Shown piece after piece: positions 1-11,867 of a stretch of 47,422 nt of DNA. The translations under genes and the position numbers were made by a program. The notes beneath the pieces are model-generated. The model searched no databases and was not told where the DNA came from. It worked only from the letters and a program-made list of their open reading frames with translations. The DNA is from a virus. Position 1 is the stretch's first letter. The number at the start of each line of letters is the position of its first letter. The DNA is taken from positions 1-47,422 of IMG/VR virus record IMGVR_UViG_3300025030_000169. One strand, written 5' to 3'.

Positions 1-3000
1 CGCTGGATGATATGCTGAATCTCGTGGTGAACGGTGCTGCGTGCCGCCTCGTTATCCATCCGCGAGTTGACATAGATCGTCACATCCTGCGGGGAAAATA
101 TTCCTCTGCGGTTTGGCCCCAATGACCGGAAGGCGATGTTCACGCCCTTGAGGAATGGGTATGCCTGGAACAGTCCGCGGTCTTTCAGGACATCCGACAG
201 TTTGCCGTCGCGCATCTCGAGCGAAGAAAGGCTGTCGTCAAGTTCGAAACTCCATTGTCCCGGGACGATCTCCCACCAACCGGTTTCCTTCCAGATGTCC
301 TCGCGGGGCTTGCCGGCGGCTTTCATCTCCTGGGCCTTGGCCAGTTTGCCGGTGTCGGCTGTGGTGGCATTTTTGCCGGCAAAAGAGAATAGCGGATTTC
401 CGGCGCCGTCACTCCACTCTTCCATGGATGAATCTTTGACGGGTGCCATGGCGATAAGGACATTACCCTTTCTCGTCACCTCGCCGAAATACTGACGCAC
501 TTCATCCTCATACCAGGCGGTCTTCTGGTGATTTTGCCATGAAGCGGGAGCGCCGTTGACTACCTTTGTAACCCGGCTGTTGCCGTCACCGTCGCCTTCA
601 TGGATCTGGAAATAGGCGGTACCGTCTGCTTTGATAGCCTTGGCCGCCTGTCGAATTACCGCCAAGCGAACAGGCTTCTCTTTGATGACATTCAGCACAT
701 TATTTACGGTCGCCGTGTCGGTCCTGTTGGCCGTCAATTCTTTGACAACATCTTGGTTATGCTCGGCCGATCTGTTGAAAGGATCGTAGACCAAGTTCTT
801 TATTCCTTGTTCCTTCAGGTATTCCGTCCCGGCGTCATACTTTCCACCGCCGATGTCGACATTGACGGTTCCCGGCTTGAGGAAGTTTTTCTTGAAGAGT
901 GCCGGGACTTGGTTCAATGAAGTTGCGGCCGAAGAGATAGCCTGCAGGACCTTCTCGGAGAACATCGGCGCGGCCATGTTGCTGCCCTGGATATCCCCCC
1001 CGCGCTTCACCGCGCTGATCGCCATGACCCGCAGGTCATCGACAGACAGGTAATTGACGAACCGGTTACCGAACACCCTGATCAGGATCTTCTTGGCCGC
1101 TGCCATGATACGGCGGACTACTCCCGACTCCGGAGCGTCCTCGACCATGTAGGCCATGACCTCGCTCCAGTAGTGCTCAGACTTCGTGCTCTTCGGCACC
1201 CTGGCCATCGCGGCGCGGATCGCCCGGCCGGTCCTGCCGGATTCTCTCTGCCGCTTCGACAGGGACCGCTCTATTGCCTGATACTCCCTGTCCTTGAGCA
1301 TCAGTTTGCGGAGGTGAACGCCAACCTCATGGTTGAGGACATCGCCGGCCCGGCCTTTCTGAATGCCATCGGCCACGAGCCATGACTTGGTGCCATCGGT
1401 GAAACCTTGGATGGTGCGGCCGTCTTCTGAGTGGAGGATATCCGGAGATGTCAGCCGGTCGATGACCTCCATGGCTTCTTCCTGGGTGCCGACGAAATCA
1501 ACCGCCCCGGATTCCACGAGAGAGGTGAAGGTCTCTTCGCCGATGGTGGAGCGCAGTTCGTCTTCCAGTTGCGCCACGGTGCGGCCGGTGGTGGTGCCGC
1601 CGGACTTCGAATATTCGACACCGAGTTTCGCCTTTTCCACTTCCTTCGCCACGGCATCTTCTGAAGCATTGCTTTTCTTCCGGCTCTCCAGTTCCCGCTC
1701 GACCGCCGTCAGCCGCTCCCCTTTCTGCTTCAGATCATCTTCTTTGGCAAATGGCTTTCCCGCCACTTCCTTGTAGGTAGGCAAGTCCTTCTCGGCTGTC
1801 GCAAGAAGACGGGCTTCATTGTTTGCCCTTGATGAGATATCTTCGATGGTGTCCAGGGTGCCGCGGAACAATGAAGGCATCGCCGTGTGCGCCCGGTTGG
1901 CGGCGAGGGTCGAGGCATAACTCTGGTTGACGAGGTAGGATTGCTTCCCGCCGGGAAGGTCTATTCGGCGCTCAAAGAAGAATTCAACCTGTTTTTTACG
2001 ATCAACAACCTTGTGCTTCTCATAACCGACAGCCGACATCGAAACCTGCATGGAAAGATCGATATCGATACCATGAACAGTGACGGTCCCGAGCATGATC
2101 TCATCGGATTCGGAAAAGTCCGGATCCTGCTTTTCAATCTGCTCGAGTTTAGCATTGGCCAGGGCAACGACTTCCTTGGTGGCCTCGCCACGCTGCTTGA
2201 AGGACTTGCCGTTGATCTTCATGGCAAAGAAAGCGGCATCGCCCAAGACCGCATGCAGGGCATCCTCGGCCTTGACTTTGGCCCGGTACTTCTTGCCGTC
2301 GATGGTGACGGAAAAAGGTTCCGCGCCTTCCTTCTTCGACTCTTCGATCAGTTTATCCAGGGCCTTCCTGGCGTCGGAGCCGCCATAAGTGGTGCCGTCG
2401 ATGTCGACGGTGGCCGACTCCCACTTTCGCCGCTCGTCGGCGGTGGCCTTCTCGACTGTCTTCGCCGCAGACTCCAACTCCTTGATCATGGCCGGCGCCG
2501 TCTCGATGGTCCGTTCCATCCGGTGAATGGTGTCTTCGGCCGCCCATCTTTGCCGCTCATGTGCCCGCTTCAGCCGCTCAAGTTTGTCGATCTCGGCCGA
2601 CAACTGCACCCGCTCAAGCTGCAGCGGTTCTCCGGAGGCGATAGCCGCAATCTCGGCCATGCCAACGGCATCGGTATCGTCAAACTCCATAGTGAAAGAG
2701 CCGTCATACTGCCGAATGCCGTTGATCATCTTCAACTTGGTGGAATTGAGCGCCCACATCTTGGCATCGACGGTGGTGTCGGTGGTATAGGCCAGGATTT
2801 CCACCTCGAAGTTATCCCGGATAGAATTGCCGTTTTCATCAAAACCGATTCTATTGCCCTGACGGATGATGCGCCCCTCGCGCTGTTCGATGTCGGAAGG
2901 CTTCCAGGTGACATCGACATGGTGAAGGCCGACGAGCCGCTCCTGAACGTTGGTCCCGGCGCCCATTCGCGGAGTGGAGCCGATAAGCACCCGCACCGCG

Positions 3001-6000
3001 CCGCTGTTCACTTCCTCGAAGAGGAATTTCTTCTTCTCGTCGGTGTCGGCTTCCTGGATAAACCGGATCTCGTTTGCGGGAATACCGCGCTCGACAAGAT
3101 TATCCTTGATCTGCTGGTAAGCGTTCCAGCCACCGGCCTGGGCAATCCTCAGTTCCTCGATCTCTACCGGGTCGAACCGCTCCAGGCTATCACCGATGCG
3201 CCTGATAGCCGCTTCATCTCCGGTGCGCTCGGCCGCCTCCAGTTTGGCCATGAGCTCGTCGTAGGTCTTGATGATCTTGTCATCGCCTTTCGCCTTGGGG
3301 ACGCTCCGGTCCAGGAAGATAAGTTGGGTGCCCTTTTCGGCCGTCCATTTGCGATGGAGCCGCACAACTTCATCGGATACCCTGGAGAGTTTTCCGCCTT
3401 CCTCGTTGCTGTCGATACCTGGCCTAGCCGCCCGGGCATCGAGTGAAACCTTTCTGGCCCGGTCCATCAGCCGCAGGCGCGCCTTATTACGCTCTTTCGG
3501 ATCGGTGATGCTTTCCAGTCCGTCAAAGCCGCTGATGATGTCCTCGATGATTCCGCGCTGTGCCGGCGTCGGTTTGACGTTGATACCCACCCGGCCGCCG
3601 CCCTTGACTTTCGGCAAGGGAAATTGAGCGCCGTTGTTGTCCTCGGCGTACCACTTCTGAATATCGTCATTCGATACGCAATCGGCGAAGGTGTAGTAAA
3701 GGTCCATGAGGGACCGGGTATTCGTCCAGTCGCGGCCAAGGCGGGAAACCTCCTTGAGGCCCTTGCCGGAATCGGTCGGCTCGAAGGCGCTGTTGACGGA
3801 AGCGAAGTTGTTTCGCCAGGCGTCGAAATGTTCCAGACCGTGCTCCTCAAGGAGTTCCGGCACCAGGTAGCGCATAAGGGTATACATCTCGACCGCGCTG
3901 TTCGATATCGGGGTGCCGGTCATGAAGGCGATGGAGCCGTTTTTCATCTCGTGAAGGACACGTGTTTTTGTCCACAAATCGTAGGCTTTTCCAGACCCGC
4001 CTTTCGGCCCCATGCCGCGCACGTTGAGGCTTGAAGTGTAGAACAAATTTTTCCCGATATCGTGTTCTTCGTCGACGGTCAGGTCATCAACTCCCAACTG
4101 CTCAAAAGTGAGGAGTCGGTCTTTCTTCCCGCTCTTCTCCTTTACCTGGGCCAGCCGGTTCTTGATCTTGTCGCGCAGGGCTTCCGCCTCTTTCACGGCC
4201 AACGGTTTTCGGAAACTTCCGCCATCATGCCCGGTTTCTGCCAGTGCTTCCTTCACGGCTTCCTCAGCAATGGCCAGCTCTGCTTCCAGGTATCTGGTCT
4301 CGGTAGCCGGAGAAATGCCGATAAACTGGAAAGAGGAATGCGGGACGATAACCATATCCCAATCGCCGGTTGCGATCTTGGCGAATATCCGGCGGCGCTT
4401 TGCCGGGACCAGATCTGACTTGCCGGCGGCCAGCAGCTTGGCCCCCGGGTAGAGCTTATAAACGTCCTTGGCAAACTGCTCGACAAGATGGTTCGGGACA
4501 ACGATCATTGGCTTACGGGAAAGCCCCATGCGCTTTCGCTCGAGCGCCCTGGCTATGCTGGTAAAGGTCTTGCCGCTACCGACAGCATGGTCGAAGAGAA
4601 CAACATTATCGACGATCCCGCGCCATATGGCGTTCTTCTGGTGCCGGCGCATGGCAATGATGGCATCTGGCACCTTCCCCGGGAACTGCAGGTGTTGCCC
4701 GTCGCGCTGCTTGGTGACCCGGACATTGAATTTGTCGTTGAAGATTTTTACCAACCTGTTCCGGCGGTCGGAGTCCTTGAATACCCATGCGTCGAATTCA
4801 TCCTTGATCTCGGCAGCCTTGGCTATTGCCGCATCGGTCGCCTCCTGGTCGACATGAGTTTTCCCTTCATGGTCGGTGTAGGTGACTTTGATCGGCCGAT
4901 TGTTGAGGATGGCGTCCACGAGCGCAACTGGACTCCGTTGCTGAGTGCCCCAATTACTCGGACCGGCCGTCCTGCCCTGAACATGGAAGGTGTTTGTGGT
5001 GCGGAAATACTTCACCTCTGCCGGGCTCTTGGTCAGGTGAGAAAGGAAATCGGCATAGACATCCGCCGGAATCCACACGCCGCCGATGGTCGCCGTCACC
5101 TTGTCGGCGGTCCACGGCTCCGGCAGCACCTTCTCCAGGGCCTTGGCGTTCTTCTCCAGGCCTTTGGCCTTGGCCGCCGCCATCTTCCTCACAACATTAC
5201 CGCCGAGATATTCGTCGGCCGGTTCCCACCTGTCAGTTTCCGGATCGAAGAAGATGAGCGGGGTATCGAGGTCGTCATGCAGGGCCTTGACGGTCTCATC
5301 CTCGCTCTTGCCCAACAGTTCGGCCACTCTCTCAAGGCTGATTCGTCCGGTCTCCGACAGGTTGATGGCCAGGGCGTCGGCGGGCGTCGCCGCCGTGGTG
5401 GCCTTCTCTACCGGGGAGATGACCCGCTTGCTCAAGATGGTGGCCTGCTCAACCATGGCCTGTTGAGGCGCTATGCCGAGTTTCTTCGCCTTGTCCTTAT
5501 CGATCGGCGGTTTGTACTTGCTTTCCAGGGAGAGGAGCAGGGCACTGTTCGGCATGCCTGCCAGGATGTTGGCCGTCTTCCTGTCGTTGATATGCGAGTG
5601 CTCTTTCACATAGGCGTCATACTGCCGGCGCAGTTTCGCCCGGTTGCTCTCCATCTCCTTCTCGGATGAATCGGAAGTCTCGAGGTTGATCTGCTTGGTG
5701 AGGGTTTCGAGAAGCTGTATAGAGTCGCGCAGGCGATTATACCCCGGCTCGCCGAGTTTCATGTTGGCCGGAATGTCGCTTTCCTTCTCGAATACTTCTC
5801 GGGTTTTCTGGTTCCGCTTGGTCGCCTTGTCACCGACAACCACCTTGACCTTCGCCCCCTTTTCATCAACCTTGTCGACATCGCGGAACCACTTGCCGTC
5901 CTTGTCCATGCTGAGAGCCGATGACCAGGGGGAAGATGGTGTGATAACCCGCTTGGATAGAATGGTGTCTCCGCCGTCGGTCTCGCGGTCGATAACCTGC

Positions 6001-9000
6001 TCCAGTTCGCCAAACTCATTGAATGAGATGGAACCCAATTCCTGACCGGAGAGGGAAATCTTCATGGCGTCGACCATGTTCTTGAAATACTGCGCCTGCT
6101 TGTCGGCTGGTGCCACTTCAACGGCGATATCCGCCGGCATGGTCTTGATGATCTTGTCTAGGCGCGCTGCAATGTCCTCGGACTTGTCGAGTTTCACATT
6201 GACGTTGGTCCCGGATCCCCGCATGGAGCCGGATCGTTCCAGTCGGCCGATAACCGCTGCCGGGTTCGATTTGAAATAGGCGTTGACCCTCATCGGCTCG
6301 CCGCCGAGCGGATCTGGAATGGTTGTGGTTTCCACCCACTCAGGATCTGGCAGGGTGATCTTCTGTTTTGCGGCGGTCTCCCGGGCGGTCTCCATCGCCG
6401 AGAGTTCGCGCTCGGTGTATTTCTGCAGGAAGAGAACATCCGTCACGACATCGGTCTTGGCATTCTCCTTGAAAGCCGTATCCGGCAGCCGGATGGCGGC
6501 CAGGAGTTTTCCTTTTCCAGCCAACAGTTTACGAACGGTGGTATCCTTTCCGTCCATCAGGTAGCGCGAAACCACCATCACCTGCAGGCCGCCGGGCTTC
6601 AGAGCGTCCATCCCGGCTAGGAAGAACTGGTGATGAATCGTGTAGGGATTGAGGTCCGGATTGTGCGGGAAGTTGAGCCGGTCTTGCCCGAAAGGCGGAT
6701 TGCCGATTACCAGGTCAAAGCTGTTTTCAGGCAATGGAAGATCCTGGAAACCGGAATGGAATACTGCGGCGTTCGGGTAGAGGTGCTTGGCAATGCCGGC
6801 CGTGATATTGTCGTACTCGACCGCCATCATGTTGGTATTGCCGGCCAGGGATTCCGGCATCAGACCAAGGAAGTTGCCGACACCAACAGAAGGCTCCAAG
6901 ACGTTGCCGCCCTTGAACCCCATGCGCTCGACCGCCTTCCACATCGCATTCACGACCGGGAAACTGGTGTAGTGCGCGGCCTTGGTGCTGTTCCTGGCAA
7001 CGGCCAGTTCTTCTGGTGTCAGGATCTTCTCGAGTTCGGCAACACGATCCTCCCAGCCGCTCTTTACCTCGCCGGTTACGCCATTGCGGAAGGAATTGGC
7101 CAGCCCGCCCCAGCCGACATACCGGGCGAGGGCGCGTTGCTCATCCGGAGTAGCCCGGCGCTTTTCTGATTCGAGTTTCTTGAGGATTTTGATAGCGGCG
7201 AGATTGTCGTTGAACTTCACGGTCTCACCGCCTTGACCGAGACGAACGTCTTCGGTAATGCGGAAATTTACTGCGGGAGTGGTGGCTGGGCCGCTTACTC
7301 TCTTTCCATCTCCTCTACCACTTCCTTCTCCGGTTTCAGAAGAATGTACCTCGGCAACATCACCTCTTCCGCCTCGTGGTGCTGATACCCCGCCTGCATC
7401 AGGCTTCTTATTCCCTCCTGCGTTCTTTCGGCCGCCTTGAGCGCTTCCGCCTGCAGGAGCCCGGCCGCTTCCAGTGCCGCCGCTTCCTTCGGACGCCATT
7501 CCTTCCAGTGCATTATCGCCTGGACCTGCAGCTGCTTCGTCGTCTGCCCGTACTGACTTCCCTTCACCTGACTGATTTTCGTTATCGGCATATGGTTCAC
7601 CTCCCCTTTCTTCAAGCGTACTCTTGTTAGGCTTTTCTGTCAACTCGACTTCGAGGTTTCCATTCCGCACGTCCTTGACGAATCGCTGCAGGTAGGGCCG
7701 GATCTTGTCACCGAATTGTCCGTAGAAGTAATTGATGAGTTCCTTGACGGAATACCCAAGATCCTTTACTCCATTCCAGGCGTTGACGAAATGAGGCTTG
7801 GCCTTTTGATATGTCTCCTCATCGAATGCCGGCCCCATCCTGATGGTATTCGGATCGCCGAAAAGAGCAGTGAGACCGGCCATGGCGTCCTTGACCGCCG
7901 ACTGCGCGGCAATGCCGCCTTCCTTGACGATCTGCCCGGCGGTCTTCTTCGGCGCTGGCGGACTCGGCGGGTTGCTCTTCGGCGGCCGGGGGGCGATCGG
8001 CGCTTTCGGTTCACGGGGAGGCTTCGGCGGTTCGGCAGTCTTTGGCGGTTTCTCGGCTGCCCGTTCCTGGTCTACCTCGTCAAAGAGATTGTCGATATCA
8101 TCATCCGACATTTCCTGGAGTTGTTCCAGGGTCGACTTCGGATCTGCCTCTGGCCTTTCCTCGACAAGACGAACATTATCGGAAGTGGTCTCGAAAGATT
8201 CCCCGTTTTCCAGGGATATGGAAACAAGAGGTTTTTGTCTGCCGATCTGGACGAACCGGCTGACGCTTCCACGTTCGCCCTTGTTTTCGCCGTTGGTTAT
8301 TACCACCTGGTCGTTGGGGTAGAAACGATCTTCAGTTGTGGTGCTATTCGCCTCGATCTGCGCTTTCTGCTCGGGAGTTACGAGGTCTTTCAGAATGGAC
8401 GGAACCACTTTCGGCTGCACCTCATCAAACAGGTACATCTCGGCCGAATCCTTGTCGGACTGGCTGGGCTTCTCAAGGTTGTGCCGGAACATGCGGGCGT
8501 TGTAATTGTCGCCCCGGGACTCGGCCTCGGCCAGGGCGTTTTCCATCAACCACCGGTCCACCCGCTTCAAGGTGTTCTCGGCCTTTCTGTTCGAGTCGGT
8601 TGCCACTTTCGGAAAAGGAGAGGTCTGCCGGCCGGTCGCGGTGAGGCGCACGTCGCCTTCAGCCAGCATTTCGCCGGTTTTGCCGCGGGGAATGGATATC
8701 CCGGAATTTTCCAACCCTTTGACGTTTTGATTTTCGGTTCCGGAACTGGTTTTGTTTTCTGTTTTCGAATTCTCTGAGGTCTGGCCTGTTTTTCCCCCTG
8801 GGTCGCCGGTGAGGTGCTGCTCACGAATGAACCACCCGCCATCCTTCTTGAAGGTGAATTTGTCGATGGCCTTTGCTTCTTTCCAGGTAATGTCGGTGCG
8901 GACTATTCCGCGAATGGTCTTGCCTTTCTTGGTGACGTGCTCAACGATATTGTCTTTTTTTGGTGTTGTTGAGTTAGGAATATTATTTTCTATAATTTCA

Positions 9001-11867
9001 ATGGCGCTAGCCGTTTCATCACCGGCCTGTTTCTGCTCCATTTTCTCCGGGTAAAGTTTCGCGATACCGTTTTTCGCCCACTGGTTATTGCTGTACGCCT
9101 GCAGAACAGGAAGAGGAACGGGAAGATCAAACCGCAACGCTTCTTTCACAGAGCGCGGATGTGCAGCCAGGCGGATGGCCTTTTCGTCGGTATCTGTGAT
9201 CCCTGCGGTGTACTCTTTGGGAGTCATTTGATATGGACTCTTTTCAGAAACAGTGGCTTTCGTTTCGGCATTCGCAAATTCGACTTTTGGCATTCCGAAA
9301 GTGGGTTTTCGGAATGTGTCCTTTTTCGATTTCGTCTCAGAAAAGACAGTTCTTTCTCGGACGAATACACCTTGGCTTGGCCCTTTTCCGCTCACCCATT
9401 TCTTGAATACCGGCATGGCGATTCGAGTAACAGATTTGCCACCTGTCCACCCTGCCTCATAACTGGAATTGTAGAGGGCAAGGGCTTCCTGCTCGCTATT
9501 CACGCCAGCCACGACCTTGTGCTCATCGAAAGAACCATCTGCCTTGTGCTGGTTGACCACGTAGACATTATCCGCCCCGCCCTGATAGCCGGGTTTCACC
9601 ATGATATCGACATGATCCTTATCATACCCCTTGGACCCGAGTATGCGGCCGTAGTCGGCCTTCATCTCCTGGGACCATTCTTTGCCTGAAGCGTCCTTGC
9701 CGGAGCGCACCGAGCCGGCCGGGTTTTCGATGGAAAGACTCAGCCCGTCGATTGAAGCCTTGGCGGTCTTGTAGTTCTCAGCTTCCTTTTGGGCTTCGGT
9801 CGGCGCGAGGTTGATATCCTTGCCGTGGACGATGGAGGAAGGATTGTCTACCGTGTTCTTAGGCGCCGCCTGGACGCTCTGTTCCCCGGTGCCGCCTTCC
9901 AACCCTGTGGTACGAATATCCCCTTGCTGAACAGATCCTCCATCTGTTTTCCCGTCAGATACAAGTGAGCCGCTTCCCGCCCCGTCTGTTCCTTGTGGTA
10001 GAGAGCCAATCTCTCTATATCCTGGATACTTATTGATCTGCCCATCTGTCTCTCCTTCTGGTTGATTTGCAAAAGCCGCTGCGGCATCATCAAGGCGCGC
10101 CTGTCTCCCCTCCACATCGACCATGGCCGGCGTCTGTTCCTGGTTCATGAACGCCTGAGCGGATTCTTCGGCGGTCGGCGGTCGGCCTGTACGGTTCGCT
10201 TCCAACTCTTCCATGGAAAGCTCTCGGTCAGCCAAACCCTGCTTTAGATTCTCGAATCGCTGCTTTCTGGTCCTGGTGTCGGCCATGCCCTGTTCGTCTT
10301 CTGCCTGGCCCGTCAGGTCCCACATCAGGTCGCGAGTCTCTTCCGGGAATTGCTGATTGAGGACATCGGCGTCTATCTGGTCCCTGGCCCCTTCCGGAAG
10401 GATGGGGGAGTAGCCCTGCTGCTGGTCCGGACCATAGCCAGGCTCTTGGCCGGGAACCGGAATACCGAGATGATCAAACACCCCTTCCTTCACGAACCGG
10501 TCTTTGGCGTCCTGGGGAAGTTGCGGATCATTGAAGAATTCGAGTGCAGCATTGACCCGCTGTGCTCGGTCATCTTCTGATTCGACAGGTGAACCGGTGA
10601 GTATCCCGGCCAGTTCGACGGCGGCTTGAGAGTCGGGAGAGTCGGTATTCTCGCTGTTGAGTGATTCACCGAGAAGGGCATTGACCTCGTTTTCAAGAGG
10701 GTCTGTGCTTGCTGATCGGCGGATAGGCCTTCCGGCGGCAACGTCTTCAAGAGCTGCAACGCGCCACTGATCAGCGTCAGGGACCTTGTTCTCCTTGGCC
10801 GACTCATAAAGTGCGTTGACTATTTCCGCCCTGGTTTCCGGTTCGGTGGCTTTCGGGTCGTTCAGGGCGTTGTCAACCGCTTCGGCATGCTGTGACCGGC
10901 GATAAGAGGCATGCAGGCCAAACGGCGCGAGCCAGGCGGTCATGCCGAGCGTCGGTAGGATTGACGCCTTGGCCTGTTCAATTGGATCGGTGTTGACGCC
11001 AGCGTTCTTTTCGACTGTGGCTTGGCCGTAGTTCTGGCCCATCTCCGTTAATGTTTCGCCTATAGCTGTCTTGACCAATGCCTTGGCAAACGGCCGAAGG
11101 ATTTCTTTGTTGGTGGCTTGGCCAATGACACTCGAGATGGTTTTTCCCGCACCAATGCCGAGCAGATCTTTACCGAAACCGAGAAACTTTCCGCCAATAT
11201 AGGTGCCGAGAGTTTCACCGGCAGTCTCGATTGCGCCAGACTTCCAGCCGGCAGTTTCGGCTGCCTCCTCGGTGCCGCCTGCTTCCATGACCGCTTCTTT
11301 CGTCTGCTGCGCCTGGGCCATGCCCATAGGAACGGCTCCACCAAGGGCGGTAAGTCCAAGGCCTATGCCGCCGGCAGTCAACGCTTCCGGCAGGAGGGCA
11401 ACACCGGCACCCACGGCCAGTGCAGGGACAATCGATGACGGAATCATCTCTGCGCCTTGAGCGAGGGTATTGGTGACGGCACTATGGTCTTCCGGGTGAA
11501 GCTGGTTCTCCGGACGCTCAAGGTATGCTTTACGGTTTTCCGCCAGACTTTTTCCGTAATGCGCCAGGCCCTGGGCCTTTTCCTTGCCGATGATGTTTTC
11601 GGTAACGGGTGATTCCGTTCCCCACTGAAGCGCCTGACCGGCCATCTCCGGAAGGACACCCAAGGTGCCACGCTTCCATGCGGTGCCGAGTTCTCCAAGT
11701 GCTGACCGCGGCTCCTGCGGCTTAGGGGTGTTCGCGATAGATTCTACCTGATCAAACACACTGAGACTTTTGCCGGCTGTCGCGTTTTGAACAGGTGGCG
11801 GGACCGGATCGGAAGCGTCGATAGAAGAGGATATCCGAGAATCTACATCATCAAAGATGTTGCCCAT
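1..11867 (-). CDS. Giant phage polyvalent protein (methyltransferase-helicase-peptidase), 3' end cut by window edge
   Basis: A single frame stays open from ATG at 11867 to the left edge, more than 3955 residues. Seen in order: small-residue-rich hydrophobic stretches (about 140-275); a pyrophosphatase-like core GRILGSKGYDKDHVDIM (740); KOW-like NDQVVITNGENKGERG (1182); Pro-rich and Gly/Ser-rich linkers; an N6-adenine methyltransferase with VLEPSVGVGNF (1655) and NPPFG (1723); a superfamily 2 helicase with GSGKT (2429), DEEH (2599), MTGTPISN and QREGRIIRQGN (2995); a coiled coil (3075-3150); HEVGVH (3513); a second SAM-methyltransferase-like domain with VDIGGGKYD (3669) and NVLNVI (3720); then an LPD23-like segment ending in HEIQH (3948). 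Such domain mixtures are known as phage/conjugative polyvalent proteins, and P1 DarB (methylase-helicase) is a virion-carried antirestriction example. Injection with the DNA is inferred. The ATG follows the previous stop by 14 nt and lacks a convincing Shine-Dalgarno, so translation is probably coupled. Confidence 0.9.
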   Translation of the reverse strand, partial: MGNIFDDVDSRISSSIDASDPVPPPVQNATAGKSLSVFDQVESIANTPKPQEPRSALGELGTAWKRGTLGVLPEMAGQALQWGTESPVTENIIGKEKAQGLAHYGKSLAENRKAYLERPENQLHPEDHSAVTNTLAQGAEMIPSSIVPALAVGAGVALLPEALTAGGIGLGLTALGGAVPMGMAQAQQTKEAVMEAGGTEEAAETAGWKSGAIETAGETLGTYIGGKFLGFGKDLLGIGAGKTISSVIGQATNKEILRPFAKALVKTAIGETLTEMGQNYGQATVEKNAGVNTDPIEQAKASILPTLGMTAWLAPFGLHASYRRSQHAEAVDNALNDPKATEPETRAEIVNALYESAKENKVPDADQWRVAALEDVAAGRPIRRSASTDPLENEVNALLGESLNSENTDSPDSQAAVELAGILTGSPVESEDDRAQRVNAALEFFNDPQLPQDAKDRFVKEGVFDHLGIPVPGQEPGYGPDQQQGYSPILPEGARDQIDADVLNQQFPEETRDLMWDLTGQAEDEQGMADTRTRKQRFENLKQGLADRELSMEELEANRTGRPPTAEESAQAFMNQEQTPAMVDVEGRQARLDDAAAAFANQPEGETDGQINKYPGYREIGSLPQGTDGAGSGSLVSDGKTDGGSVQQGDIRTTGLEGGTGEQSVQAAPKNTVDNPSSIVHGKDINLAPTEAQKEAENYKTAKASIDGLSLSIENPAGSVRSGKDASGKEWSQEMKADYGRILGSKGYDKDHVDIMVKPGYQGGADNVYVVNQHKADGSFDEHKVVAGVNSEQEALALYNSSYEAGWTGGKSVTRIAMPVFKKWVSGKGPSQGVFVRERTVFSETKSKKDTFRKPTFGMPKVEFANAETKATVSEKSPYQMTPKEYTAGITDTDEKAIRLAAHPRSVKEALRFDLPVPLPVLQAYSNNQWAKNGIAKLYPEKMEQKQAGDETASAIEIIENNIPNSTTPKKDNIVEHVTKKGKTIRGIVRTDITWKEAKAIDKFTFKKDGGWFIREQHLTGDPGGKTGQTSENSKTENKTSSGTENQNVKGLENSGISIPRGKTGEMLAEGDVRLTATGRQTSPFPKVATDSNRKAENTLKRVDRWLMENALAEAESRGDNYNARMFRHNLEKPSQSDKDSAEMYLFDEVQPKVVPSILKDLVTPEQKAQIEANSTTTEDRFYPNDQVVITNGENKGERGSVSRFVQIGRQKPLVSISLENGESFETTSDNVRLVEERPEADPKSTLEQLQEMSDDDIDNLFDEVDQERAAEKPPKTAEPPKPPREPKAPIAPRPPKSNPPSPPAPKKTAGQIVKEGGIAAQSAVKDAMAGLTALFGDPNTIRMGPAFDEETYQKAKPHFVNAWNGVKDLGYSVKELINYFYGQFGDKIRPYLQRFVKDVRNGNLEVELTEKPNKSTLEERGGEPYADNENQSGEGKSVRADDEAAAGPGDNALEGMASEGSGGTGSGRAPAGGSAQGGRKNAGGNKKPDAGGVSAPRGGRGDVAEVHSSETGEGSGRGDGKRVSGPATTPAVNFRITEDVRLGQGGETVKFNDNLAAIKILKKLESEKRRATPDEQRALARYVGWGGLANSFRNGVTGEVKSGWEDRVAELEKILTPEELAVARNSTKAAHYTSFPVVNAMWKAVERMGFKGGNVLEPSVGVGNFLGLMPESLAGNTNMMAVEYDNITAGIAKHLYPNAAVFHSGFQDLPLPENSFDLVIGNPPFGQDRLNFPHNPDLNPYTIHHQFFLAGMDALKPGGLQVMVVSRYLMDGKDTTVRKLLAGKGKLLAAIRLPDTAFKENAKTDVVTDVLFLQKYTERELSAMETARETAAKQKITLPDPEWVETTTIPDPLGGEPMRVNAYFKSNPAAVIGRLERSGSMRGSGTNVNVKLDKSEDIAARLDKIIKTMPADIAVEVAPADKQAQYFKNMVDAMKISLSGQELGSISFNEFGELEQVIDRETDGGDTILSKRVITPSSPWSSALSMDKDGKWFRDVDKVDEKGAKVKVVVGDKATKRNQKTREVFEKESDIPANMKLGEPGYNRLRDSIQLLETLTKQINLETSDSSEKEMESNRAKLRRQYDAYVKEHSHINDRKTANILAGMPNSALLLSLESKYKPPIDKDKAKKLGIAPQQAMVEQATILSKRVISPVEKATTAATPADALAINLSETGRISLERVAELLGKSEDETVKALHDDLDTPLIFFDPETDRWEPADEYLGGNVVRKMAAAKAKGLEKNAKALEKVLPEPWTADKVTATIGGVWIPADVYADFLSHLTKSPAEVKYFRTTNTFHVQGRTAGPSNWGTQQRSPVALVDAILNNRPIKVTYTDHEGKTHVDQEATDAAIAKAAEIKDEFDAWVFKDSDRRNRLVKIFNDKFNVRVTKQRDGQHLQFPGKVPDAIIAMRRHQKNAIWRGIVDNVVLFDHAVGSGKTFTSIARALERKRMGLSRKPMIVVPNHLVEQFAKDVYKLYPGAKLLAAGKSDLVPAKRRRIFAKIATGDWDMVIVPHSSFQFIGISPATETRYLEAELAIAEEAVKEALAETGHDGGSFRKPLAVKEAEALRDKIKNRLAQVKEKSGKKDRLLTFEQLGVDDLTVDEEHDIGKNLFYTSSLNVRGMGPKGGSGKAYDLWTKTRVLHEMKNGSIAFMTGTPISNSAVEMYTLMRYLVPELLEEHGLEHFDAWRNNFASVNSAFEPTDSGKGLKEVSRLGRDWTNTRSLMDLYYTFADCVSNDDIQKWYAEDNNGAQFPLPKVKGGGRVGINVKPTPAQRGIIEDIISGFDGLESITDPKERNKARLRLMDRARKVSLDARAARPGIDSNEEGGKLSRVSDEVVRLHRKWTAEKGTQLIFLDRSVPKAKGDDKIIKTYDELMAKLEAAERTGDEAAIRRIGDSLERFDPVEIEELRIAQAGGWNAYQQIKDNLVERGIPANEIRFIQEADTDEKKKFLFEEVNSGAVRVLIGSTPRMGAGTNVQERLVGLHHVDVTWKPSDIEQREGRIIRQGNRIGFDENGNSIRDNFEVEILAYTTDTTVDAKMWALNSTKLKMINGIRQYDGSFTMEFDDTDAVGMAEIAAIASGEPLQLERVQLSAEIDKLERLKRAHERQRWAAEDTIHRMERTIETAPAMIKELESAAKTVEKATADERRKWESATVDIDGTTYGGSDARKALDKLIEESKKEGAEPFSVTIDGKKYRAKVKAEDALHAVLGDAAFFAMKINGKSFKQRGEATKEVVALANAKLEQIEKQDPDFSESDEIMLGTVTVHGIDIDLSMQVSMSAVGYEKHKVVDRKKQVEFFFERRIDLPGGKQSYLVNQSYASTLAANRAHTAMPSLFRGTLDTIEDISSRANNEARLLATAEKDLPTYKEVAGKPFAKEDDLKQKGERLTAVERELESRKKSNASEDAVAKEVEKAKLGVEYSKSGGTTTGRTVAQLEDELRSTIGEETFTSLVESGAVDFVGTQEEAMEVIDRLTSPDILHSEDGRTIQGFTDGTKSWLVADGIQKGRAGDVLNHEVGVHLRKLMLKDREYQAIERSLSKRQRESGRTGRAIRAAMARVPKSTKSEHYWSEVMAYMVEDAPESGVVRRIMAAAKKILIRVFGNRFVNYLSVDDLRVMAISAVKRGGDIQGSNMAAPMFSEKVLQAISSAATSLNQVPALFKKNFLKPGTVNVDIGGGKYDAGTEYLKEQGIKNLVYDPFNRSAEHNQDVVKELTANRTDTATVNNVLNVIKEKPVRLAVIRQAAKAIKADGTAYFQIHEGDGDGNSRVTKVVNGAPASWQNHQKTAWYEDEVRQYFGEVTRKGNVLIAMAPVKDSSMEEWSDGAGNPLFSFAGKNATTADTGKLAKAQEMKAAGKPREDIWKETGWWEIVPGQWSFELDDSLSSLEMRDGKLSDVLKDRGLFQAYPFLKGVNIAFRSLGPNRRGIFSPQDVTIYVNSRMDNEAARSTVHHEIQHIIQ
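7295..7591 (-). CDS. Nested out-of-frame small protein inside the giant gene (98 aa)
   Basis: This ORF lies wholly inside the giant polyvalent gene in the +1 register. Its ATG (7591) follows a perfect 8-nt anti-SD complement, GGAGGTGA (7597-7604), by 5 nt. The product looks like a real soluble helical protein: it begins MPITKISQVKGSQYGQTTKQ and holds MHWKEWRPKEAAALEAAGLL, with well spread Trp, His, Tyr and charged residues and mostly G/C third positions. In the giant frame the same DNA encodes a featureless Gly/Ser/Asp linker (about residues 1425-1524), the kind of segment that tolerates a second code. A TTG 24 nt upstream is in frame but would overlap the ribosome site. Function unknown. The alternative is a chance open frame produced by Gly-rich codons; the ribosome site and composition argue against this. 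Confidence 0.6.
   Translation of the reverse strand: MPITKISQVKGSQYGQTTKQLQVQAIMHWKEWRPKEAAALEAAGLLQAEALKAAERTQEGIRSLMQAGYQHHEAEEVMLPRYILLKPEKEVVEEMERE
9848..10045 (-). CDS. Second nested out-of-frame small protein inside the giant gene (65 aa)
   Basis: The ORF begins with ATG at 10045, 6 nt after AGAAGGAG (10052-10059), a strong ribosome site. It starts MGRSISIQDIERLALYHKEQ and continues with HLYLTGKQMEDLFSKGIF, a plausible amphipathic helical protein. The C-terminal 15 residues are Arg-rich and less convincing. The overlapping part of the giant protein (about residues 607-673) is Gly/Ser/Asp-rich linker immediately before the pyrophosphatase-like domain. It uses the same alternative register as the nested ORF at 7295-7591. 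Function unknown. A chance ORF remains possible, and the evidence is weaker than for the other nested ORF. Confidence 0.42.
   Translation of the reverse strand: MGRSISIQDIERLALYHKEQTGREAAHLYLTGKQMEDLFSKGIFVPQGWKAAPGNRASRRRLRTR

Follow-up and report, generated by a model that had tools for sequence, protein, structure and literature searches.

A linear virus record of 47,422 bases (the window) was analyzed. Its minus strand carries a giant DarB-like polyvalent gene and, nested within it in another reading frame, a small gene for a putative TnpV-like protein (Table 1). The nested frame runs from an ATG at position 7591 to a TAA at 7297-7295 and is shifted by +1 relative to the giant frame (giant codons start at 11867-3k; 11867-7591 = 4276, remainder 1). 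An earlier note on this DNA had placed a 98-aa ORF at 7295-7591 without stating the strand; the ORF exists, but its strand is now corrected to minus, and the plus strand holds no such gene at 7295-7591. The perfect Shine-Dalgarno sequence with 5-nt spacing described there could be read directly, as GGAGGTGA is separated from the ATG by the spacer ACCAT.

Table 1. Position and supporting evidence of the features of the giant gene and the gene nested in it.
Feature	Position	Strand	Evidence
Giant DarB-like polyvalent gene (≥3955 aa, incomplete at the window end)	3..11867	-	ORF, Pfam domains, annotated phage homologues
Inorganic pyrophosphatase domain of the giant (PF18823)	9393..9797	-	E 7e-46
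Shine-Dalgarno GGAGGTGA of the nested gene	7597..7604	-	sequence reading; kept in L001-L003; SD enrichment
Nested gene, 98 aa, TnpV-like helical protein (predicted)	7295..7591	-	ORF, same-frame homologues, codon-position signal, AlphaFold2
N6 adenine methylase domain (Eco57I / N6_Mtase) in the giant, located downstream of the overlap	6408..6749	-	above Pfam cut-offs
SNF2-type helicase motif region of the giant	3807..3953	-	E 6e-4, below cut-off
LPD23 large polyvalent protein associated domain of the giant	219..389	-	E 9e-20

In addition to the listed domains, a putative metallopeptidase was found in the giant by domain search. The combination of N6 methylase, helicase and LPD-type domains in one giant frame, with the SNF2 match below its own cut-off, classified the protein as DarB-like, and its relatives in phage records are labelled DarB-like antirestriction protein, PLxRFG protein or DNA methylase. 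The N6 methylase, the SNF2 region, the pyrophosphatase and LPD23 are shared with the polyvalent proteins of phages and conjugative elements surveyed by Iyer et al. (2017; PMC5512222), and the text of this survey makes no mention of TnpV, overlapping genes or frameshifts.

The giant frame is uninterrupted across 7295-7591 and rich in Gly, Ser, Glu and Arg, in agreement with the earlier description of this segment as a Gly/Ser-rich linker with no fold. In the overlap, 47% of the giant residues are G/S/R/P and 9% are hydrophobic, compared to 24% and 29% downstream, and 49% of the nested protein consists of A/E/L/K/Q. According to the genetic code, nested GAx and GCx codons would write xGA and xGC (Gly, Arg, Ser) in the +1 relation, which is consistent with these numbers, so that an Ala/Glu-rich nested helix would automatically result in a Gly/Ser/Arg-rich giant linker. 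Another out-of-frame ORF within the giant gene (91 aa, 8567-8842, minus strand) was rejected as a probable chance frame: it has no Shine-Dalgarno sequence, is R/P/S-rich and is less conserved than the giant frame, with 83.5% nested identity against about 94% identity of the giant stretch.

Using the window protein alone as query, only three near-identical viral contigs were retrieved, and tblastn against isolated phages gave no match. Homologues were reached only through intermediate sequences, with divergent relatives being recovered by a query with the neighbouring methylase segment. All of the more distant complete relatives encode a protein at the corresponding place, with the relative frame unchanged, and these proteins share the pattern ARKHWxxWLPxKVAxLKAEGxL...GYQxHEAEEVxLP...ILLxPE. 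With a distant relative as query, homologues were identified in the Klebsiella phages SopranoGao and LASTA, Agrobacterium phage Atu_ph08, Microcystis phage Mwe-JY07, Vibrio phage VvAW1, Sinorhizobium phage PBC5, Pseudomonas phage Itty13 and the Erwinia phages PEp14 and Stean as well as on a Micromonospora plasmid, all of them in the +1 frame. None of the phage regions viewed annotates the nested gene separately; the PBC5 record includes it as the C-terminal part of orf33.

The distribution of the gene was analyzed in 183 loci from bacterial genomes and viral contigs, mostly fetched via the methylase domain in methylase alignment scans. Many of these are metagenomic drafts and many are near-duplicates, and 79 are non-redundant. 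With an iterative HMM, a family member was detected on the upstream side of the methylase in 157 loci, and in 156 of them the gene is nested +1 with the giant frame open; the single exception (L046) may be a draft frameshift. At the corresponding place, eleven further loci have a member of a second subfamily, likewise nested +1, and in another six loci, all Clostridial, TnpV is nested farther upstream in the same +1 frame. Altogether, about 173 of the 183 loci encode a homologue in the +1 frame, in most cases directly preceding the methylase domain. Because the loci were mostly fetched via the methylase, this proportion is the frequency of the nested gene in such giant genes and not the frequency of nesting among TnpV genes. 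The search for homologues of the 98-aa protein proposed in the earlier note was thus answered with same-frame homologues, and the architecture that it had considered unusual for these proteins turned out to be the rule in this class. The nested pair occurs on plasmids and chromosomal elements as well as in phages, and about eight phyla are represented, with records from Pseudomonadota, Bacillota, Actinomycetota, Planctomycetota, Chlorobiota, Thermodesulfobacteriota and Spirochaetota together with a cyanophage. The nested gene is absent from some of the loci L085, L088, L094 and L101 and from P1 darB. Since P1 darB, unlike the giant of the window, represents a DarB system without the nested gene, the latter is not essential to DarB-type anti-restriction in general.

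Several additional frames were observed in these genes. In Burkholderia phage BcepMigl (L188, 4690-4959) a weak TnpV-like match (E 0.016) is nested +1 in a DarB-like gene, and the DarB-like gene of Bacteroides phage BKO1-TP3 (L190, about 4630-4960) contains an open frame in +1 directly before the methylase, whose acidic product does not clearly resemble the TnpV family. The codon-position scan flagged a second +1-nested ORF of 73 aa in L123 (1623-1841) and L130 (1659-1877), about 2.5 kb upstream of the methylase and 64% identical between the two loci, and a single giant gene of this type may harbour two or more nested genes. A conserved basic peptide of 47 aa is nested +1 upstream of the TnpV-like gene in L140 (2193-2333) and is also found in L141, L139, L029, L135 and L136.

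The nested copies from Bacillota belong to the Pfam family TnpV (PF14198), with E-values down to 4.5e-44 and scores of up to 149 bits, and the Micromonospora plasmid copy scored 28.4 bits, just over the curated cut-off of 27 bits. The window protein had no Pfam match and did not reach this cut-off, and of the phage-type members 14 of 56 matched TnpV at E<0.01, below the cut-off. Profile-profile comparison of the phage type with the Bacillota type (hhalign) resulted in a probability of 85.9 and an E-value of 5.2e-6, and both types also have the same position and frame in the host gene. The phage type is best called a probable remote relative of TnpV, and the window protein TnpV-like instead of a member of the Pfam family. 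TnpV of Tn4451-type transposons is, like the nested protein, small and predicted to be helical, but has been described as a stand-alone transposon gene, whereas here the gene is nested +1 in a giant methylase-helicase gene.

AlphaFold2 predicted five helices for the window protein (pLDDT 85.8). This model and a TnpV model are both mostly helical, no common PDB match stands out, and a PDB structure search with the two models gave no significant fold match. Matches to helical designed proteins were discarded as composition artefacts. The match of the nested-protein model to 2apl (PG0816; VIA-align Z 7.7, 80 residues, 2.9 A), which we take to belong to DUF1896 (PF08989), lies below the stated noise limit for helical bundles and was not seen with the TnpV model. 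In the viral library, the best structure match was Q8W6J4_2 (TM 0.71, E 1.2e-3), which could be the PBC5 protein.

An ATG is located near the HMM start in all 79 non-redundant loci. Taking the ATG nearest to this start, chosen blind to any Shine-Dalgarno sequence, we observed a Shine-Dalgarno match of at least 5 nt in 41 of the 79 loci in comparison to 5.1% of 4586 background +1-frame ATGs (Fisher p 1.5e-30). This enrichment supports independent initiation at the nested ATG, and the nested frame is probably translated. Together with the homologues in the same frame and at the same place, it indicates that the frame is more than a chance ORF.

Substitution patterns point to selection in both frames. 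Across 41 independent pairs, substitutions at giant codon positions 1/2/3 amounted to 794/421/370 in the overlap and to 545/373/2161 in the methylase part, the third-position excess shifting to the nested frame within the overlap. A blind sliding scan of 17 giant pairs flagged mostly the nested interval. Following the suggestion of the earlier note to compare synonymous and nonsynonymous change in both frames, we sorted 598 substitutions from 27 close pairs by their effect in each. The rates per site were 0.167 for nested-silent, giant-changing and 0.227 for doubly silent substitutions, in contrast to 0.036 for nested-changing, giant-silent substitutions and 0.046 for those changing both proteins; they dropped to 0.003 for nested stops and 0.004 for nested-silent giant stops. 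In the overlap, nested-nonsynonymous changes are therefore depleted about 4-fold and giant-frame stops about 40-fold, while amino acid changes in the giant are nearly free. By these sequence comparisons the nested protein is clearly under purifying selection, and the rates in the two frames indicate that it is the constrained product and the giant a linker that needs only to stay open. With the nested proteins taken as given and codon usage assumed to be ordinary, an open giant frame in all 79 loci has a probability of about 1e-137, which argues that the giant polypeptide really reads through. Both frames are thus open and under selection. The earlier note had named the lack of a homologue and conservation of the giant frame alone as the outcome that would speak against a nested gene, and we found the opposite, a conserved nested frame.

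These data refute the idea of a chance open frame in GC-rich DNA. Long chance frames are indeed common in GC-rich giant genes, and openness given the giant protein is often likely (0.66 for the window's own case), but neither accounts for homologous amino acid sequence in the same frame across phyla, for the codon-position switch or for the enrichment of Shine-Dalgarno sequences.

Stand-alone copies of TnpV served as a control for the openness of the giant frame. We searched 13 genomes with Pfam TnpV and obtained both nested and stand-alone copies. At the nested copies, the giant frame is open for about 550-890 codons, up to the edge of the fetched stretch, whereas the corresponding frame at the stand-alone copies is closed, mostly within 28-71 codons. 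A third-base T before GA, AA or AG, equivalent to a stop in the giant frame, occurred in 34 of 214 cases in the stand-alone copies but in 0 of 106 in the nested copies of the same set, and in 0 of 2427 across the 79 nested loci. As the frame is closed in stand-alone copies, its openness is no by-product of encoding TnpV. A single Faecalibacterium genome (G012, locus L067) contains twelve TnpV copies, both nested and stand-alone. In the tree, the stand-alone and nested copies are interleaved, with at least three changes between the two states.

Taken together, we consider the nested frame a genuine coding gene related to TnpV, lying +1 in a DarB-like polyvalent methylase-helicase gene, whose product is constrained, whose counterpart in the giant is a read-through linker and whose likeliest origin is the swallowing of a small gene (probability roughly 0.9). 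Homology, frame, Shine-Dalgarno sequence, selection in two frames and the stand-alone control were each established by computation. In the proposed mechanism, ribosomes would start independently at the nested Shine-Dalgarno sequence and ATG on the mRNA of the giant, and two proteins would be made from one stretch. Across the nested gene, the giant frame would encode a disordered linker, selected only to lack stops, and its Gly/Ser/Arg-rich composition would follow from the Ala/Glu-rich codons of the nested gene.

Instead of internal initiation, a programmed frameshift from the giant into the nested frame could produce a truncated giant ending in a TnpV-like domain. In the PBC5 record (L019, 1-4285), orf33 is annotated as a protein of 2185 aa in which the upstream part of the giant continues in frame into the TnpV-like domain, owing to a sequencing error or to a genuine change of frame. 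The profile phrog_938 (length 2185) matched 6 of 6 members tested; it was probably built on this orf33 fusion, and we did not adopt its 'endolysin' label. However, PBC5 is a single record from 2001 that may contain a frameshift error, and its relative Atu_ph08 has a continuous giant frame with the gene nested. An ATG at the family start in almost every homologue, enriched in Shine-Dalgarno sequences, and the same start in stand-alone homologues (Campylobacter pCOS502) also argue against frameshifting, which we regard as very improbable.

Regarding the origin of the overlap, the giant may already have had a permissive linker in which a young gene arose by de novo overprinting, the polarity assumed in the earlier note. 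De novo overprinting is described as the usual origin of viral overlaps (PMC8227390), and the overlapped part of the giant is in fact a linker rich in Gly and Ser that lacks a fold. In contrast, the nested family spans phyla and has stand-alone members, and the linker residues are nearly unconstrained and sharply unlike the rest of the giant in composition, which makes de novo overprinting unlikely. The likeliest origin is that a small gene upstream of a methylase-helicase gene was swallowed when elongation or fusion carried an upstream frame across it. Of the two frames, the linker is more likely the younger one, created by reading through a small gene that already existed, because the nested family is old and includes stand-alone genes and because the linker residues in the overlap are nearly free. 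The interleaved tree leaves room for escapes from the nested to the stand-alone state or for an ancient birth inside the giant. One such scenario, with a tnpV-like gene long locked in methylase-helicase genes of phages, plasmids and integrative elements, +1 in virtually all lineages, the transposon TnpV as escapees and the two products cooperating in anti-restriction, appears possible but doubtful. Hence, the earlier view of a real gene nested out of frame in the linker with its own ribosome-binding site holds, while the direction of overprinting was probably the reverse.

The function of the nested protein can be proposed from its neighbourhood. The constant link to the methylase-helicase suggests, tentatively and by association, a small partner or regulator of this protein, made from the same mRNA and acting in anti-restriction or in DNA establishment of phages and conjugative elements. 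A role as Xis-like excision or recombination factor would be somewhat less probable: for TnpV of Tn4451 a function in excision has only been postulated, based on likeness to lambda Xis (PMC3158075), and stand-alone TnpV adjoins a serine recombinase, but TnpX was reported to be the sole transposon protein needed for transposition of Tn4451/3 (Lyras 2004, as cited in PMC3158075) and the constant neighbour of the nested copies is the methylase-helicase.

Overlapping genes and TnpV are both of known kinds, but we found no description of TnpV nested in the giant gene in a literature search covering sources other than subscription journals and preprints. The 'TnpV in snf2' of Streptococcus suis papers refers to mobile elements inserted into snf2, which is a different matter. 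Fully nested phage genes are known from Rz1 in Rz of lambda and E in D of phiX174. As proposed for the TnpV-like pair, translation begins there at an internal start and yields a second protein from a different frame of one mRNA. Unlike the TnpV-like nesting, which spans many phyla and occurs on plasmids and chromosomal elements as well as in phages, these two cases are confined to a phage group, and the TnpV-like pair also differs from both in that one of its frames is a near-unconstrained linker. To our knowledge, overlapping genes this old and broad are rare, and most known cases are young and restricted to one virus group.

If the scenario of a long-locked tnpV-like gene holds, few fully nested gene pairs known from bacteria and phages would be older or more widespread. 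The pair has been largely invisible because only one of the two genes, the small one or the giant, is retained by annotation pipelines, and both choices are found in plasmid records. With the stand-alone copies as controls, it provides a clean system for measuring the constraint that one frame imposes on another and the way in which linkers arise from frames read through old genes. Finally, it ties the functionally unexplained TnpV family to anti-restriction methylase-helicase proteins.
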